NCBI RefSeq assembly: GCF_030409835.1
Contig: NZ_JAUFQO010000001.1
Span: 1-64,000, forward strand
Source of the DNA: Lutimonas halocynthiae
GTDB taxonomy: Bacteria > Bacteroidota > Bacteroidia > Flavobacteriales > Flavobacteriaceae
Length of the DNA: 64,000 nucleotides
Reading direction: 5' to 3'
Shown here: piece after piece, positions 18,363 through 23,735 of the stretch
How positions within the stretch are numbered: position 1 is the first letter of the stretch
Layout: every line of letters begins with the position of its first letter
The notes under the pieces: generated by a model
The model's database searches: none
What the model saw: only the letters and a program-made list of their open reading frames with translations
What the model was told of the DNA's origin: nothing
Made by a program: the position numbers and the translations under genes

Positions 18363-19571
18363 TTACAGCATGTTCCTATAAAAAAACTTTTTCAAAAGTA
18401 ATATTATCTTCTTTCTAATTCTAAATTCAAATTTTTGAATAGACCTAGGAAATATTGCCTTAAATCTTTTTCTGTAGCCACTAGCATTTTCATCATAATC
18501 TAAAAGCAATAATACTGAAAAGGTTAACAAATATATGCCGATGAAAACGGAAGTTAGACCCCAAGAATTAAGGTAAATATTACATACATACATTATAAGA
18601 AAAATAATTCCTCCGCATATTGTTAAAGTAATACTTGCCGTCTTGTGAATTAAACCCCTATCCACCAAAATATGATGCATATGGCATCTGTCTGGAGAAA
18701 AAGGACCTCGCTCATTCAATAACCTCATTAGGATCACCCTTATTACATCCACGATGGGGAAAAATGTAATAGATAAGGCAATTAAAAATTTATTGATGGG
18801 TTTTATCCATATTTGCTCATAACTAGCATCAGGCATTGCTAAAAACCGAATGGTTAAAATTGCAATTAAAAAACCAACAATGAGAGAACCAGTGTCTCCC
18901 ATAAAAATTCTTTGATTTTTAGATAAATTATATCTGAGAAAAGCAATTAGAAATCCAACTCCTGTCACGCTCAGTAGAAAATAAAAATTACTGCCTGATA
19001 AATAAAATAAAATAGCATATATGCCCAATATTAAAATCCCAAGCATCCCAGCCAAGCCATCAATTCCATCAATTAAATTATAAGCGTTAATGATAAACAC
19101 CATTATAAAATAACTCATTAATATTGAGAACAAAAGAGGCACTTCGTGAATTCCTAAAAATCCACTAAATCCATTAATCCACAATTCAGGCATAATTAGA
19201 ACAAATGAAATTGAAATTAGCTGTGCCCAAAGTTTTGTCTGAGCTGAAAGTACCATTAAATCATCTTTTAGACCAACAAAAAACAGGATTAGTATTGCCA
19301 TTATTATATTTAAAGCTGATCCATCATAGTCAAATGAGTGAATAATAAAAAGAGCGAATACAATACTTATAAAGAAAGTTACACCGCCCAAAGTAGGTGT
19401 TTTTTCTTTATGAGAACTGCGTTCATCCGGATGATCCATTAAATTTTTAAAATGAATTATGCCCAACAATTTAGGTATGAGAATGAATGTAGACAAAAAA
19501 GAAGCTATAAAAACAAAAATAGCAACTCCTTCTAACTCAACACTTTTTAATATTTCAAATAATTTTTCCAA
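18363..19571 (-). CDS. wecA: WecA/MraY-family undecaprenyl-phosphate phosphosugar transferase
   Basis: A 402-residue membrane protein with about 11 segments. It carries the family's cytoplasmic motifs: HPDERSSHKEKTPTLGG (substrate loop), NAYNLIDGIDGLAG (the Asp-rich metal site), MGDTGSLIVGF and the His motif PDRCHMHHILVDRG. That last HxHH-type motif is typical of WecA/TagO rather than MraY. It transfers a sugar-1-phosphate, usually HexNAc-1-P, to undecaprenyl phosphate and so starts repeat-unit assembly. It is the first gene of the polysaccharide locus and is preceded by a recognisable promoter. About 40 residues at the C-terminus are basic and divergent. Confidence 0.92.
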   Translation of the reverse strand: MEKLFEILKSVELEGVAIFVFIASFLSTFILIPKLLGIIHFKNLMDHPDERSSHKEKTPTLGGVTFFISIVFALFIIHSFDYDGSALNIIMAILILFFVGLKDDLMVLSAQTKLWAQLISISFVLIMPELWINGFSGFLGIHEVPLLFSILMSYFIMVFIINAYNLIDGIDGLAGMLGILILGIYAILFYLSGSNFYFLLSVTGVGFLIAFLRYNLSKNQRIFMGDTGSLIVGFLIAILTIRFLAMPDASYEQIWIKPINKFLIALSITFFPIVDVIRVILMRLLNERGPFSPDRCHMHHILVDRGLIHKTASITLTICGGIIFLIMYVCNIYLNSWGLTSVFIGIYLLTFSVLLLLDYDENASGYRKRFKAIFPRSIQKFEFRIRKKIILLLKKFFYRNML

Positions 19572-19722
19572 TATTCAAATTTGCATCTATGTTAAATTTT
19601 ACGGCTTCGCCCCTCTAAGTCACATAAGAATTAATGCTTAGACATAGATAATTACTCTCCTTAACGATTATTTTACCAATATATTCCAGCGCTAAAAAAA
19701 AATACTTTCAATCAATTATAAA

Positions 19723-19740
19723 TTATGTTCTAGAACATAA
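19723..19740. promoter_or_regulatory. 18-bp palindrome at the predicted wecA start point
   Basis: TTATGTTCTAGAACATAA is a perfect palindrome. It begins 2 nt downstream of the predicted -7 box on the minus strand, so it would cover the transcription start. That position suits a repressor operator; the binding protein is unknown. Confidence 0.6.
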
Positions 19741-19741
19741 A

Positions 19742-19772
19742 CAAAATTAGCTAGGTGAATAAATAATAACAA
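19742..19772 (-). promoter_or_regulatory. Bacteroidota-type promoter of wecA and the polysaccharide locus
   Basis: On the minus strand the -33 TTG (19770-19772) and -7 TAATTTTG (19742-19749) are separated by 20 nt, close to the consensus TTG-N19-TAnnTTTG. It would give a leader of about 165 nt before wecA. Confidence 0.55.
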
Positions 19773-20104
19773 AAGAATAAAGTTCAATCACCAAATGAGA
19801 TGTCTTTAATTTAATACTCAACAGAATCATGATTCAAATCACGCTTAACTAAAATTTAATAATTGAGAAATATCGTTAAAACTGAACAGTTTAACAACAA
19901 TAAGAAGTAGTCTTTTTTTCATAACGAGGGGTTTTATGATAAAAATTTATTTGATTTTAAATAGAATATCCATTTAAAATAAGCCGCTAATATAATAAAA
20001 GGAATCAATAAAGGAAAGATGTAATTTTCATTACTTAATTTTCATATTCTTTATAATTCCATAACAATTTGGTGGCTAATATACAAAATATTTGAATATA
20101 ACAA

Positions 20105-20122
20105 ATACCGCCGCTAGGGTAT
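20105..20122. promoter_or_regulatory. Regulator-associated dyad, copy 1 (diverged)
   Basis: ATACCGC-CGCT-AGGGTAT keeps one perfect half-site and the 4-nt spacing of the repeated dyad, with two changes in the other half. It lies 5 nt past the stop of the last regulator and 534 nt upstream of wecA. Confidence 0.5.
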
Positions 20123-20126
20123 ACAA

Positions 20127-20867
20127 TCACAACACCCCATTCCTCTTACAAAATTTCAACAATTCTTCAGCTGAATGACAGCCGCTTTTCTTCATGATCT
20201 TTTTTCTATGGGTTGCCACGGTATGCTTAGATATCTCAAGGCTTTCTGCAATGTCTTGGCTTGATTTTCCTTTGGCAATTTCTTTGATAATATCAAGTTC
20301 TCTATTTGTAAATAAATCTTTGCTGCTATGATAAATTTTATACTTAAAAGCCTCCTGATCCAGGTTCTCCGCTACAAATTTATAGCGTACCACTTCTCCG
20401 TCTTCTATAAAAGAAAGGTCACTTACTTTGACAAGGGAGCTAATCATCTGCCCCTCTTGACCTATTTCAAACACAGAAGATTGACTTAAAACCTTTATAT
20501 ATTCATTATTAGATTTTCTAATCCTAAATGAAATGTATAAAACATTGTCCTTATTATTATTAGGATTGCTATGGGTGTGTTCCATAGTTGCGGCACCAAT
20601 CCTTCCAACCAGATCAATATCATCTGGATGTATCTTTTCCAAATAATTTCCAAGAGACATTTTTTCATCTTTATACCCGACAAATGATTCAAATCCATTG
20701 GCAAAGGTCATTTTATTCTTAGAAAAATCGATGACATAGATGCATTCGGTTTGACTTAGATTAAGTGCTTGTAAAGTTTCCAAATAATCATCTCGAAATT
20801 CAATATGTTTATATTTCTTGGCAAATTCATCCAGAAACTCTAAAATTTTTAAACCTTCTTCTTGCAT
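20127..20867 (-). CDS. PAS-LuxR transcriptional regulator A
   Basis: A 246-residue soluble protein. Residues about 25-145 form a PAS-like sensor fold (YVIDFSKNKMTFANGFESF, the HPDD segment, then YISFRIRKSNNEYIKVLSQS). Residues about 185-240 are a LuxR/GerE helix-turn-helix (FTNRELDIIKEIAKGKSS, SKHTVATHRKKIMKK). There is no receiver domain, so it is not a classical response regulator. It is 8 nt downstream of a paralogue and probably co-transcribed with it. The ligand is unknown. Its place next to the polysaccharide locus makes that locus a candidate target, which is inference. Confidence 0.85.
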   Translation of the reverse strand: MQEEGLKILEFLDEFAKKYKHIEFRDDYLETLQALNLSQTECIYVIDFSKNKMTFANGFESFVGYKDEKMSLGNYLEKIHPDDIDLVGRIGAATMEHTHSNPNNNKDNVLYISFRIRKSNNEYIKVLSQSSVFEIGQEGQMISSLVKVSDLSFIEDGEVVRYKFVAENLDQEAFKYKIYHSSKDLFTNRELDIIKEIAKGKSSQDIAESLEISKHTVATHRKKIMKKSGCHSAEELLKFCKRNGVL

Positions 20868-20875
20868 TTTCTTTC

Positions 20876-21610
20876 TTAATTTTCAGTATTTATTTTAATT
20901 CCATTTCTTTTGCAAAATAGTTGTAATTGATGACTATCGCTACAATTTGATTTAAATAATATGTTTTTTCTGTGCGTTGCAACAGTATGCCTACTAATAC
21001 TTAGTTTGGCTGCAATTTCATGATTTGATTCACCTTCAAAAACTCTGGCAATTATTTCTAATTCTCTAGGTGTGAAAATTGTCATACCTTCTCCATACAC
21101 ACCATATTGAATCTTATCTTCATTCATATAAGTGGAATCCACCTTCCATTCAACCGCATCAGACTCATGAATAAAAGAGATATCTGCATATTTGACCAGC
21201 ACACTAAGGATCCTGTCACTTTCATCTGTTTGGTAAACAATCGTATTACTCAAGACCCTGGCATAGGTTCCATCTGATCTTTTAAACCGATATGAAATGT
21301 TTAAAATATTGGAGAATTCAGGAATGGTAATATCAACTAATTGATTGATCAGTTCTTTTATAATACTTTGAATCAATGGCGCATCTTCTGAATGGTACTT
21401 GTCAAAAATAAAGTCCATATCAAATTGCTTCTCCTCGTAACCAAATGCAGTATCAAATCCTTTATGGTGTAAAATCGAATTTTTAGTGAAATCAAAGAGA
21501 TAATAACATTCCAGATTATTTAATGGAATTGTCTCCAAAGATGCAAGGTCAAGGCCATTACCTTTTCGATTCCTTACCTTCCCCTCAATTTCCTTAAAAA
21601 ACGATTTCAT
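20876..21610 (-). CDS. PAS-LuxR transcriptional regulator B
   Basis: A 244-residue paralogue of the genes on either side. The PAS-like part includes YYLFDFTKNSILHHKGF, YHSEDAPL and ISYRFKRSDGTYARVLSNT; the HPDD motif is changed to HSED. The C-terminal LuxR domain reads FTPRELEIIARVFEGESNHEIA and SRHTVATHRKNILFKS. It is the most diverged of the three: it ends in a NGIKINTEN tail and has Ser-Asp-Ser-His where the others have His-Ser-Ala-Glu. It shares a transcript with regulator A. An operator-like dyad lies 107 nt upstream of its start. Confidence 0.85.
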   Translation of the reverse strand: MKSFFKEIEGKVRNRKGNGLDLASLETIPLNNLECYYLFDFTKNSILHHKGFDTAFGYEEKQFDMDFIFDKYHSEDAPLIQSIIKELINQLVDITIPEFSNILNISYRFKRSDGTYARVLSNTIVYQTDESDRILSVLVKYADISFIHESDAVEWKVDSTYMNEDKIQYGVYGEGMTIFTPRELEIIARVFEGESNHEIAAKLSISRHTVATHRKNILFKSNCSDSHQLQLFCKRNGIKINTEN

Positions 21611-21716
21611 AAATGACTATTACATTGTATCATATAGCCAAGATGAACTCATTTCAATTCACTGAGATCATGGCTCCAAATACATCTTGTAAATTAAGTA
21701 GAATAACCTAATATAG

Positions 21717-21738
21717 ATATACCCTTGTCAGGGTATAT
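21717..21738. promoter_or_regulatory. Regulator-associated dyad, copy 2
   Basis: ATATACCCT-TGTC-AGGGTATAT has 9-bp perfect arms and a 4-nt spacer. It lies between regulators C and B, 107 nt upstream of the start of B. No T-run follows it on the minus strand, so a protein site is more likely than a terminator. Confidence 0.65.
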
Positions 21739-21883
21739 TTGGTTTTTAAAAAATATGTTTCTATAAAGTAATTGTAAGGATTTTTGTTGGCACGATTATT
21801 TGCTTCTTTATTTTTAAAAGAGAAATCTGGTTTTTTGCTCTGGTTAGAGTGCGGATAGCGAGGTTTAACAATCATTTTTAAAA

Positions 21884-22618
21884 TTAAAGAACACCATTTC
21901 GTTGACAAAATAAAATCAACTCCTCCGCTGAATGGGATTCGCTCTTTTTCATAATTTTCTTACGATGGGTCTCTACTGTAAACTTTGAAATTCGAAGATT
22001 TTCTGCAATTTGAAAATTTGACATGCCTTTTTGTATTTCTTTGATTATTTCTAACTCGCGAGGTGTGAAAATCGATTTATTCTTATCATAAACCAAATCA
22101 TGAAACAACTCATCATCAAGGCTGTTGGCTAAGAACTTATACTGAACAGCATCTGTTGTGTCAACAAAACTGATATCGCTTAGTTTTACTAAAAAGCTAG
22201 AGATTAACCCCTGGTTGTCAATACTATGTGGTGAAGATTGTGCCATTATTTTGATATAATCTCCATTAGATTTTTTTATTCTATGCGACACATACAGGCA
22301 GAAGTCCGAATTTAATTCAGGGTGCTTTATAGAATGACGTATAGCCGCCTGCCCTAATCGATAAATGTATTCTTGGTCTTCAGGATGAAACAATGCTCCA
22401 AATTTTTCGAGATTGACATCTTCATTCTGAAAACCCAAAAGGTTTATAAAACCTCTTTTAAAGACCATTTCACCCAATCGCAGATCCCAGACAAATAAAC
22501 ATTCATTCTTGTTAAACTTTATTTTCTCCAGGTCATTAATACTTCCTTCCACTTTTGTGTGTGGAGGATAATGTTTTGCAATATCATCAATAAACTGTTC
22601 TATAGTTTTTGTTTTCAT
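21884..22618 (-). CDS. PAS-LuxR transcriptional regulator C
   Basis: A 244-residue paralogue with the same layout: PAS-like region about 25-145 (LFVWDLRLGEMVFKRGF, FHPEDQEYIYRLGQAA, VSHRIKKSNGDYIKIMAQS) and LuxR helix-turn-helix about 185-240 (FTPRELEIIKEIQKGMSN, SKFTVETHRKKIMKKS). The recognition helix differs from the others at TVET versus TVAT. A perfect ATACCCT-N4-AGGGTAT dyad lies 52 nt upstream of its start and another about 340 nt upstream, which suggests self-regulation. It is separated from B by 273 nt. Confidence 0.85.
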   Translation of the reverse strand: MKTKTIEQFIDDIAKHYPPHTKVEGSINDLEKIKFNKNECLFVWDLRLGEMVFKRGFINLLGFQNEDVNLEKFGALFHPEDQEYIYRLGQAAIRHSIKHPELNSDFCLYVSHRIKKSNGDYIKIMAQSSPHSIDNQGLISSFLVKLSDISFVDTTDAVQYKFLANSLDDELFHDLVYDKNKSIFTPRELEIIKEIQKGMSNFQIAENLRISKFTVETHRKKIMKKSESHSAEELILFCQRNGVL

Positions 22619-22669
22619 TCAGGGGCATTAGAATCAAGTGCACAATATAGTGCAAATAACAAACCAATG

Positions 22670-22689
22670 CATACCCTTATGAGGGTATG
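22670..22689. promoter_or_regulatory. Regulator-associated dyad, copy 3
   Basis: CATACCCT-TATG-AGGGTATG has 8-bp perfect arms with the same 4-nt spacer as copy 2. It is 52 nt upstream of the regulator C start. Confidence 0.65.
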
Positions 22690-22735
22690 TTGAAGCCGAA
22701 ATATAATTAAGAATTAATTGAAGAAGTTTTGAGTT

Positions 22736-22775
22736 CAATAAAATAGCCCATAATTTTGGCTTAAATCATGGGCTA
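22736..22775 (-). terminator. Possible terminator hairpin
   Basis: Arms TAGCCCAT (22744-22751) and ATGGGCTA (22768-22775) pair, and on the minus strand TTTTATT follows. It may end the transporter transcript or lie in the leader of regulator C. Confidence 0.5.
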
Positions 22776-22843
22776 AAGCAAATAGCTAGAAATTTAATCA
22801 TTTCTATGCTCGAGGGGAAAAATTATTAATTCAAAATAAAGTA

Positions 22844-22863
22844 GAGACCTCCGAAGAGGTCTC
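22844..22863 (-). terminator. Hairpin with cUUCGg tetraloop
   Basis: GAGACCTC and GAGGTCTC pair perfectly; on the minus strand the loop is TTCG closed by C-G, an unusually stable tetraloop. The following minus-strand sequence is only moderately T-rich. It lies 140 nt past the transporter gene and is a likely terminator or 3' stabiliser. Confidence 0.5.
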
Positions 22864-22957
22864 CCTAAAGATCCTTACACTGTAAAGACGCTCAAAGAAC
22901 ATCTTTAGTTCGGGAAAATTGTTACTGTAAAAGTAAATACTAAAGTGTCACTTGTCA

Positions 22958-22975
22958 ATACCCTCTAGAAGGTAT
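22958..22975. promoter_or_regulatory. Regulator-associated dyad, copy 4
   Basis: ATACCCT-CTAG-AAGGTAT differs from the perfect dyad by one base and keeps the 4-nt spacer. It lies 29 nt past the transporter stop and about 340 nt upstream of regulator C. Confidence 0.55.
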
Positions 22976-23003
22976 ATTTCATTCTTATAGAAATCATTGG
23001 AAT

Positions 23004-23735
23004 TTACAGTTCAATCTCTTCGTGGGGCTCGAGCTTAAATCTTGCTCTAAACCAGTAAACAAAAACGTAAAGAATTGGGGTGTCTAATAGTGCTACCAGC
23101 AATTTAAATAAAAACCCATTGAGTAGTAAAATACCAAAGAGATCCCATTCAATTACGCCAAAAGAACATAATAAAAAGAGTACTGAAAACGTATCCAGAA
23201 ACTGTGAAGCAATAGTCGAAAAGTTATTTCTCAACCACAAATGCCTTCCTTTGGTTTTGACTTTCCAGAAGTGATAAATCCTGATATCAACAAATTGCGC
23301 TACCAAATAAGCCATCGCTGAAGCGAAAACTGCCAAAGCCGATAGCCCAAATACGCTGTGAAAAACTTCATTTCCAATAGGCGACCATTCTGTGGCTGTT
23401 GCTGCATCAGATAACATAATGATCAACAATGAAAAAGCTGAAGCAAAAATCCCGGTTATGACAACCTGATTTGCTTTCTTTTTACCATAGATCTCAGAGA
23501 TCAGATCTGTTACTAAAAAAGTGATAGGATATGGTAAAATACCAACCGATATTTCAAAATTATACCAACCCAAAAAATTCCAGGAAAAGAATTTTTGAAA
23601 GATGAGATTGGAAACCACCAAAGAGGAAATAAAAATCGCCGCTAGAATTAAAAAGATATTAAAAGCAAGAGGCTTGTCCTTTTCTGAGAGAGGTTTTGAG
23701 TTCATGGAGCTAAAATAAGGATTTATACTTTCCAA
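23004..23735 (-). CDS. yhhQ: Queuosine precursor transporter (YhhQ/VUT family)
   Basis: A 243-residue inner-membrane protein with about six segments. Family marks include NIFLILAAIFISSLVVSN, the acidic/polar stretch PYPITFLVTDLISEIYGKK, AYLVAQFVDIRIYHFWK and NNFSTIASQFLDTFSVLFL. YhhQ proteins take up queuosine precursors such as preQ0/preQ1 for tRNA wobble modification. The start could instead be the second Met, MNSKPLSEKDKP at residue 11, which begins 30 nt later. It appears to be a single-gene unit ending at hairpins downstream. Confidence 0.88.
   Translation of the reverse strand: MESINPYFSSMNSKPLSEKDKPLAFNIFLILAAIFISSLVVSNLIFQKFFSWNFLGWYNFEISVGILPYPITFLVTDLISEIYGKKKANQVVITGIFASAFSLLIIMLSDAATATEWSPIGNEVFHSVFGLSALAVFASAMAYLVAQFVDIRIYHFWKVKTKGRHLWLRNNFSTIASQFLDTFSVLFLLCSFGVIEWDLFGILLLNGFLFKLLVALLDTPILYVFVYWFRARFKLEPHEEIEL

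Follow-up and report, generated by a model that had tools for sequence, protein, structure and literature searches.

A palindromic dyad at a fixed distance from the -7 box as the proposed operator of GerE-type regulators in Lutimonas and other Flavobacteriaceae

Introduction

The system described here lies in Lutimonas halocynthiae (Flavobacteriaceae), in a stretch of 64,000 nucleotides (RefSeq assembly GCF_030409835.1, contig NZ_JAUFQO010000001.1, positions 1 to 64,000) that is referred to as the window. Within 2,871 bp of it, from 20,105 to 22,975, a short palindromic dyad recurs around three paralogous genes, A, B and C, for PAS-LuxR regulators, that is, proteins with a PAS domain and a GerE-type (NarL/LuxR) helix-turn-helix (HTH). 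Two described systems come close to it. The operators of NarL in Escherichia coli, such as those of yeaR and ogt, are described as two 7-base inverted elements 2 bp apart (7-2-7) bound by a GerE-type dimer, and NarL is reported to activate from a site of this kind centred at -44.5 (PMC7419079). VqmA of Vibrio cholerae is reported to be a cytoplasmic PAS-LuxR regulator that activates a small RNA (sRNA) gene through a promoter palindrome, given as GG-N6-CC, with one HTH residue contributing to promoter choice (PMC8284805).

The dyad, a putative binding site, has the 7-2-7 geometry of the NarL sites and co-occurs with GerE genes. The system differs from NarL in that a PAS sensor takes the place of the receiver, in the arm, which is TACCCTN here and which we take to be TACYYMT in NarL, and in a promoter with the Bacteroidota box TAnnTTTG. 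The likeness to VqmA-VqmR, at the level of sequence and in three genomes (that of the window, G000, as well as G011 and G017; G and L numbers denote compared genomes and loci), consists of a PAS-LuxR gene together with a predicted sRNA that has a palindrome in its promoter; vqmR reportedly adjoins vqmA. On the other hand the palindrome is a different one, identity is only 16-19%, the predicted RNA (sRNA1) has no Rfam match above the gathering score, and there are two or three regulators here. Judged by titles and the openings of abstracts, with subscription papers mostly outside that material, no description of such an operator was met in the literature.

An initial annotation of the window had proposed that the dyads form the operator of a self- and cross-regulating circuit of A, B and C. 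In this study we consider it likely, from the sequence comparisons that follow, that the dyad serves GerE-type regulators as their operator; these would here be the PAS-LuxR proteins A, B and C, which would activate their own genes, other targets and sRNA1. The sRNA and the promoter geometry are additions to that annotation.

Results and Discussion

Dyads in the window and in the genome

Recomputation returned the same four dyads that had been annotated, all with a 4-nt spacing: two perfect matches to the 18-letter palindrome (21719 and 22671), one with a single mismatch (22958) and one with two (20105). All four lie outside the three regulator genes (Table 1). The distance of 52 nt between the 22671 site and C was confirmed, the site upstream of B was correctly placed but stands at 108 and not 107 bp, and the site said to lie between A and the polysaccharide locus is that at 20105, 4 bp past the stop codon of A. 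With two further 3-mismatch matches elsewhere, the window holds six matches at up to 3 mismatches against 2.16 expected, a number reached by one in 100 shuffles.

Table 1. Positions of the regulators, dyads, boxes and predicted RNAs, in window coordinates
Feature	Position	Strand	Remarks
Candidate -7 box TATATTAG of 20105 dyad	20076..20083	-	21 nt downstream of dyad; 5/6 letters
Weak dyad, candidate promoter toward polysaccharide locus	20105..20122	-	2 mismatches; 4 bp past stop of A
Regulator A, PAS + GerE protein, 246 aa	20127..20867	-	8 bp after B
Regulator B, PAS + GerE protein, 244 aa	20876..21610	-	
-7 box TAATTTAC of 21719 dyad	21689..21696	-	22 nt downstream of dyad; imperfect, 4/6 letters
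Perfect dyad, proposed operator of B-A transcript	21719..21736	-	108 bp upstream of B
Regulator C, PAS + GerE (LuxR) protein, 244 aa	21884..22618	-	
-7 box TATATTGT of proximal dyad	22642..22649	-	21 nt downstream of dyad; 22 nt in G011, G017, G013
Proximal dyad, perfect, proposed operator of C	22671..22688	-	52 bp upstream of C
sRNA2, second conserved block, starting AATTTTTCCCC	22736..22826 (ends approximate)	-	hairpin + covarying terminator-like hairpin
sRNA1, predicted non-coding RNA	22832..22923	-	predicted start about 22923; UUCG-capped terminator-like hairpin at end
-7 box TACTTTTA of distal dyad	22928..22935	-	22 nt downstream of dyad
Distal dyad ATACCTTCTAGAGGGTAT, proposed operator of sRNA1	22958..22975	-	1 mismatch; altered left arm shared with relatives

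The whole genome (3,989,279 bases) contains 33 dyad places at up to 2 mismatches against 12 for the reversed pattern, and 19 against none at up to one mismatch. The interval in question holds four of the 33 where 0.024 would be expected, with a P of about 1e-8 for an interval that was picked after the fact. The annotation's expectation that the dyads are not scattered at random is borne out by these counts, by the clustering at the regulators and by the intergenic position of 50 of the 52 sites at up to one mismatch in six genomes (G000, G008, G011, G013, G014 and G017) with a coding share of about 84%; one G012 site (60-nt margin) and one site of G018 stand outside the 52. About one third of the 2-mismatch matches in the genome are background, and for this reason the 20105 dyad is weak taken alone; it is supported by a perfect site in G017 (L090:7289), where the second regulator gene stops 5 bp before the dyad.

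Position of the dyad in the promoter

In 149 Flavobacteriaceae genomes from 148 genera we searched for the dyad, its 4-nt gap being fixed by the search pattern itself, followed by the sigma-A -7 box TAnnTTTG at any offset from 7 to 37 nt (31 offsets). The box stood exactly 22 nt past the dyad in 28 of the 45 composite matches, and no other offset was found more than twice (P about 1e-30 under a uniform null). The 45 matches were spread over 30 genomes and the 28 over 17, and a control search with the wrong arm gap (N8 for N6, a 6-nt dyad gap) gave 12 matches with no offset peak. In 30 loci, 11 of 15 sites with offset 22 were intergenic, the remaining four lying in open reading frames (ORFs), three of them short; all three sites at offset 21 or 23 were intergenic as well, and 10 of 12 at other offsets lay inside ORFs. 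The same offset stood out in the 22 nearest named loci (14 matches in 13 loci, against a mean of 0.05 in 40 block shuffles) and in 55 more distant GerE loci, with 12 matches in 10 loci and at most three at any other offset. These 10 loci include records titled Parapedobacter, Cyclobacteriaceae, Flammeovirgaceae and Bacteroidales; three of the palindromes are imperfect and two of the sites are inside a called ORF. In the Lutimonas locus the distal dyad is followed after 22 nt by its box and after a further 6 nt by CAATTTTCC in all five genomes compared, the boxes in the four other than the window genome being TATTTTAG, TACATTAG, TACCTTGT and TAAATTTG.

In Flavobacterium psychrophilum the box TAnnTTTG is reported to span -12 to -5 (PMC9723704). 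As the dyad ends 22 nt before the box, its centre would lie near -43.5. A regulator dimer, probably joined through the PAS domains, would bind TACCCTN-NN-NAGGGTA in the NarL geometry and from this position would recruit RNA polymerase, as in class II activation. In the window this would give autoregulated promoters of C and of B-A together with a dyad-driven sRNA1, and elsewhere in the genome activation of genes for secreted proteins and lipoproteins. It could also be that the dyads are repressor operators, with the regulators repressing their own genes and the RNA. Autorepression is common and the sign of control is unreadable from sequence, but a location upstream of the -7 box, centred near -43.5, agrees with activation and is comparable to the -44.5 of NarL; we infer activation, and regard repression as quite unlikely.

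A dyad with a 7-bp stem and a 4-nt loop, often followed by T, might also be an RNA hairpin or intrinsic terminator, and several sites do lie close behind a stop codon, many of them followed by T runs. This is very improbable because the spacing to the promoter box is fixed. Moreover, the majority of sites are upstream of genes, ATAC is retained in most variants though pairing alone would not demand it, and the sRNA1 unit has a stronger terminator-like hairpin elsewhere (22844-22864).

Conservation of the sites within Lutimonas

The annotation had suggested a search for the dyads at orthologues of the regulators, and in G011, G017 and G013 they are found there at the same positions. In these three genomes a B-like and an A-like gene lie beside the same transporter gene, C being an extra copy in the window. 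The first regulator is preceded by a perfect dyad, and directly behind the transporter gene there is another dyad in altered form. The left arm of this distal dyad, ATACCTT.., is identical in the window and the three genomes and is ATACCTC.. in G012, where both dyads and the RNA are present and the contig stops before any gene or regulator. In G014 a truncated homologue that stands in another gene neighbourhood is preceded at 85 bp by a perfect dyad, and G016 and G021 have, just past the regulator, a fully palindromic 2-mismatch variant of the ATACCCC..GGGGTAT type. Among 22 same-genus genomes, many of them incomplete, a dyad at up to one mismatch was found in four of four with a best homologue below 1e-90 and in four of the other 18 (P 0.01).

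Arm variation and the identity of the regulator

The palindrome is retained in other genera with both arms altered together (ATACCCC, ATACTCA, ATACCCA, ATCCCCT). Of 25 named loci (L129-L153), some of which belong to the same genomes as the comparison within the genus, 14 hold a palindrome of this type, with a 4-nt gap, that is perfect, and in three it is imperfect (L146, L147 and L153); the genera represented include Aurantibacter, Zobellia, Zeaxanthinibacter, Mariniflexile, Aureibaculum, Algibacter, Hyunsoonleella and Mesonia. In 25 regulator-dyad pairs compiled by hand, there is a tendency for the arm to vary with the recognition-helix residue that follows T-V: lysine goes with CCC in three of three cases and asparagine with CTA in two of two, while aspartate is mixed (TCA twice, CCA twice, CTA once). 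This table is confined to perfect palindromes, and so leaves out the imperfect L146, L147, L153, L168, L173, L177, L249, L262 and L275, and it also leaves out L142, in which the ORF caller gave no GerE ORF.

A further question is which GerE-type protein the dyad serves. When 29 loci were chosen on no other ground than the promoter pattern (offset 22 in 26 of them, 21 or 23 in three), nine of the 10 GerE genes were within 1 kb of a site, a zone that makes up 61,597 of 245,602 bases (25%). Some of the genes beside the composite promoter, at L249, L262, L274 and L275 and at L206 of the distant set, encode a receiver together with GerE according to Pfam. Exclusive ownership of the promoter by PAS-LuxR proteins was accordingly considered and rejected, since receiver-GerE response regulators share the HTH and the promoter. 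The idea that the dyad is the operator of this one regulator family stands in so far as sites lie beside orthologues; it does not stand as a claim of uniqueness, both for this reason and because the 7-2-7 geometry is that of NarL.

A stronger form of the same argument would assign the dyad to a different GerE-type regulator, such as a response regulator of the receiver-GerE kind, and leave the PAS-LuxR genes as mere targets. In addition to the five receiver-GerE loci, the tie to the PAS-LuxR family is weak across genera, and a family profile finds nine matches at E <= 1e-4 in the window genome, several of which cover the HTH only. Against this, the arms change along with the neighbouring regulator in many loci (with modest statistics), the dyad-rich Lutimonas genomes (G000, G011, G013 and G017) are those with the closest homologues of A, B and C, and dyads flank the regulators at orthologous positions. 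We hold this alternative to be unlikely.

A number of observations nevertheless weigh against the dyad as operator of the PAS-LuxR proteins themselves. No site of this type was found in eight of the 25 named loci (L130, L132, L134, L135, L139, L140, L151 and L152). The match of helix residue to arm (P 0.0003, and 0.0004 in an earlier table of 18 pairs) falls to 0.04 once relatives are thinned and comes from a test chosen after the data had been seen; L131, outside the pair table, runs counter to it with an A-type helix and TACTCA. A GerE gene stands within 1 kb of only eight of the 31 composite sites, leaving 23 without, and the PAS-LuxR family is present in 12 of the 17 genomes with offset-22 sites compared with 79 of 149 overall, a weak link. 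Boxes in Lutimonas are degenerate, and those of the window promoters at 22958, 22671 and 21719 are imperfect: a match to the composite pattern in its exact form does not occur in the window genome and occurs once in G011, at offset 25, and with five of six letters matching and sites read in both directions, 48 Lutimonas sites gave eight box matches at offset 22, four at 21, nine at 48 and six at 37. Four Lutimonas genomes with close regulators (G002, G010, G016 and G021) have no dyad at up to one mismatch; in G010 the regulator gene begins at the contig end, and in G002 none was found with the upstream region of the regulator in view. Finally, with a looser homology cut of 1e-50, dyads were found in five of nine against three of 13 Lutimonas genomes (P 0.13).

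The annotated self- and cross-regulating operator thus gains from the conservation, the compensatory arms and the fixed spacing to the box, and loses the 22958 site, which is better read as an RNA promoter. On this evidence the proposed operator with its fixed promoter architecture is common to GerE-type regulators in Flavobacteriaceae, and the same architecture is probably wider than this family.

Domains and structure of the regulators

A and B are probably in one transcript. The C-terminal GerE HTH is found in A, B and C by Pfam (PF00196, 1.5e-13 to 6.7e-16), and PAS_3 falls just under the cut-off (21.6-24.3 against 25.6 bits) and above it in the relatives L258 and L136. Pfam gives only these two domains, and the autoinducer-binding domain of the LuxR receptors for acyl-homoserine lactones was found in none of the three. 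In the AlphaFold2 model of C (mean pLDDT 86.8) the predicted N-terminal PAS fold matches ARNT PAS-B (TMt 0.79). Foldseek ranks 3clo, a Bacteroides LuxR-type protein with an HTH that is also matched by the family profile, as the best structure match to the model, followed by chains of VqmA and EL222, so that the predicted structure resembles these two as well. Whole-chain TM-scores are only 0.3-0.5, presumably because the orientation of the domains differs.

In nine loci a gene resembling an alpha/beta hydrolase adjoins the PAS-LuxR gene, confirmed by Pfam for L133, L136, L137, L144 and L101 and called by eye for L134, L139, L140 and L096. It is possible that this hydrolase makes or breaks a ligand of the PAS domain.

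Predicted small RNAs

For the 22958 site the best reading is not a distal site of C but a promoter from which a conserved non-coding RNA would be made. The predicted sRNA1 lies between C and a gene for a transporter of the queuosine-precursor type. A block of about 85 nt, with a mean column identity of 85%, is conserved in the window, G011, G017 and G012; it opens 6 nt past the box with CAATTTTCCC, and it folds better than shuffled sequences (z -3.46). A model of it, R1 (22837-22922 in the window), matched four of the 149 genomes under strict filters, all in the same genus and the same four that were used to build it. For the R1 structure no compensatory pair was found and the covariation term was slightly unfavourable, with four sequences. 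A search of 19500-23100 against Rfam gave nothing above the gathering score, and three matches below it are all within regulator genes. A peptide encoded in sRNA1 was considered and judged unlikely because the length of the loop changes by 1-2 nt between genomes.

The second block, sRNA2, may be a transcript of its own or a processed part. Ten of its 21 predicted pairs show compensatory change in four sequences. G013 seems to lack the stretch that separates the two similar starts, so that the second body would there come directly after the dyad promoter.

Another conserved block, CCCCTCRYTATGAA, is present downstream of regulators at about 19890-19960 of the window (minus strand), at L090:7531 and at L091:5215; in the window it sits between the 20105 dyad and the wecA-like gene. 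In L094 (4915), L095 (4286) and L143 (3668) a dyad after the regulator is followed by about 280-430 bases with no called ORF, and additional RNAs behind these dyads are possible. As for the annotated control of wecA, what speaks for it is the position of a dyad with two mismatches at a distance of 533 bp; the box is imperfect and the proposal remains weak.

Sites elsewhere in the genome

The four dyads were rightly assigned to the intergenic regions of the regulators; sites are, however, found genome-wide. The two exceptions to their intergenic position are in a doubtful ORF (L089) and in a gene (L114) that, by its sequence, we take to be isocitrate-dehydrogenase-like. Most dyads are upstream of genes, often those for secreted proteins and lipoproteins. 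The Pfam matches in nine downstream genes include two proteins that carry a type IX secretion tail, one a reprolysin-like peptidase and the other a BNR protein, as well as an SMP-30-like and an InlB-repeat/LRR protein; the curlin-like gene in L116 is not among the nine, nor are those in L109, L118 and L266. In G039, of the same family and another genus, six of seven dyad matches are inside genes.

Two stretches of the window genome, L005 (G000:C8:137468-144555) and L007/L008 (G000:C12:225123-240729), contain several small genes of lipoprotein-like or unknown type with a dyad upstream. Some flanks show wider similarity; most of the dyads lack a box at 22 nt, and some have a second spacing, of 47-48 nt. 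The similar flanks led us to consider gene cassettes or integron-like repeats, a reading that was dropped because seven of the eight sites at up to one mismatch are 40-113 bp before a gene. Genes with curlin repeats in G013 and G017 (L116:4247 and L104:4678) have a perfect dyad 352 bp upstream and a perfect box at 22 nt, with a second dyad of one mismatch at 4290 in L116. A CsgD-like biofilm regulon was considered as the core target and set aside because curlin repeats are present in only these two of the 11 genomes searched.

Conclusions

A broader and somewhat doubtful proposal, which we put forward tentatively, is that of a Bacteroidota module resembling VqmA-VqmR. PAS-LuxR proteins would sense a small molecule, possibly one that the alpha/beta hydrolase adjoining many of them makes or breaks, and would switch on their own genes, an sRNA and a regulon of secreted proteins through a standard promoter, and the recognition helix would re-tune the arms for each copy, giving many insulated circuits per genome. 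The candidate sRNA of the window, if under direct PAS-LuxR control, would represent a type of circuit familiar from quorum sensing in Vibrio. A fixed rule for the distance from dyad to box would let the direction of control and the targets of GerE-type regulators be read from sequence in Flavobacteriaceae, and perhaps in the wider Bacteroidota.

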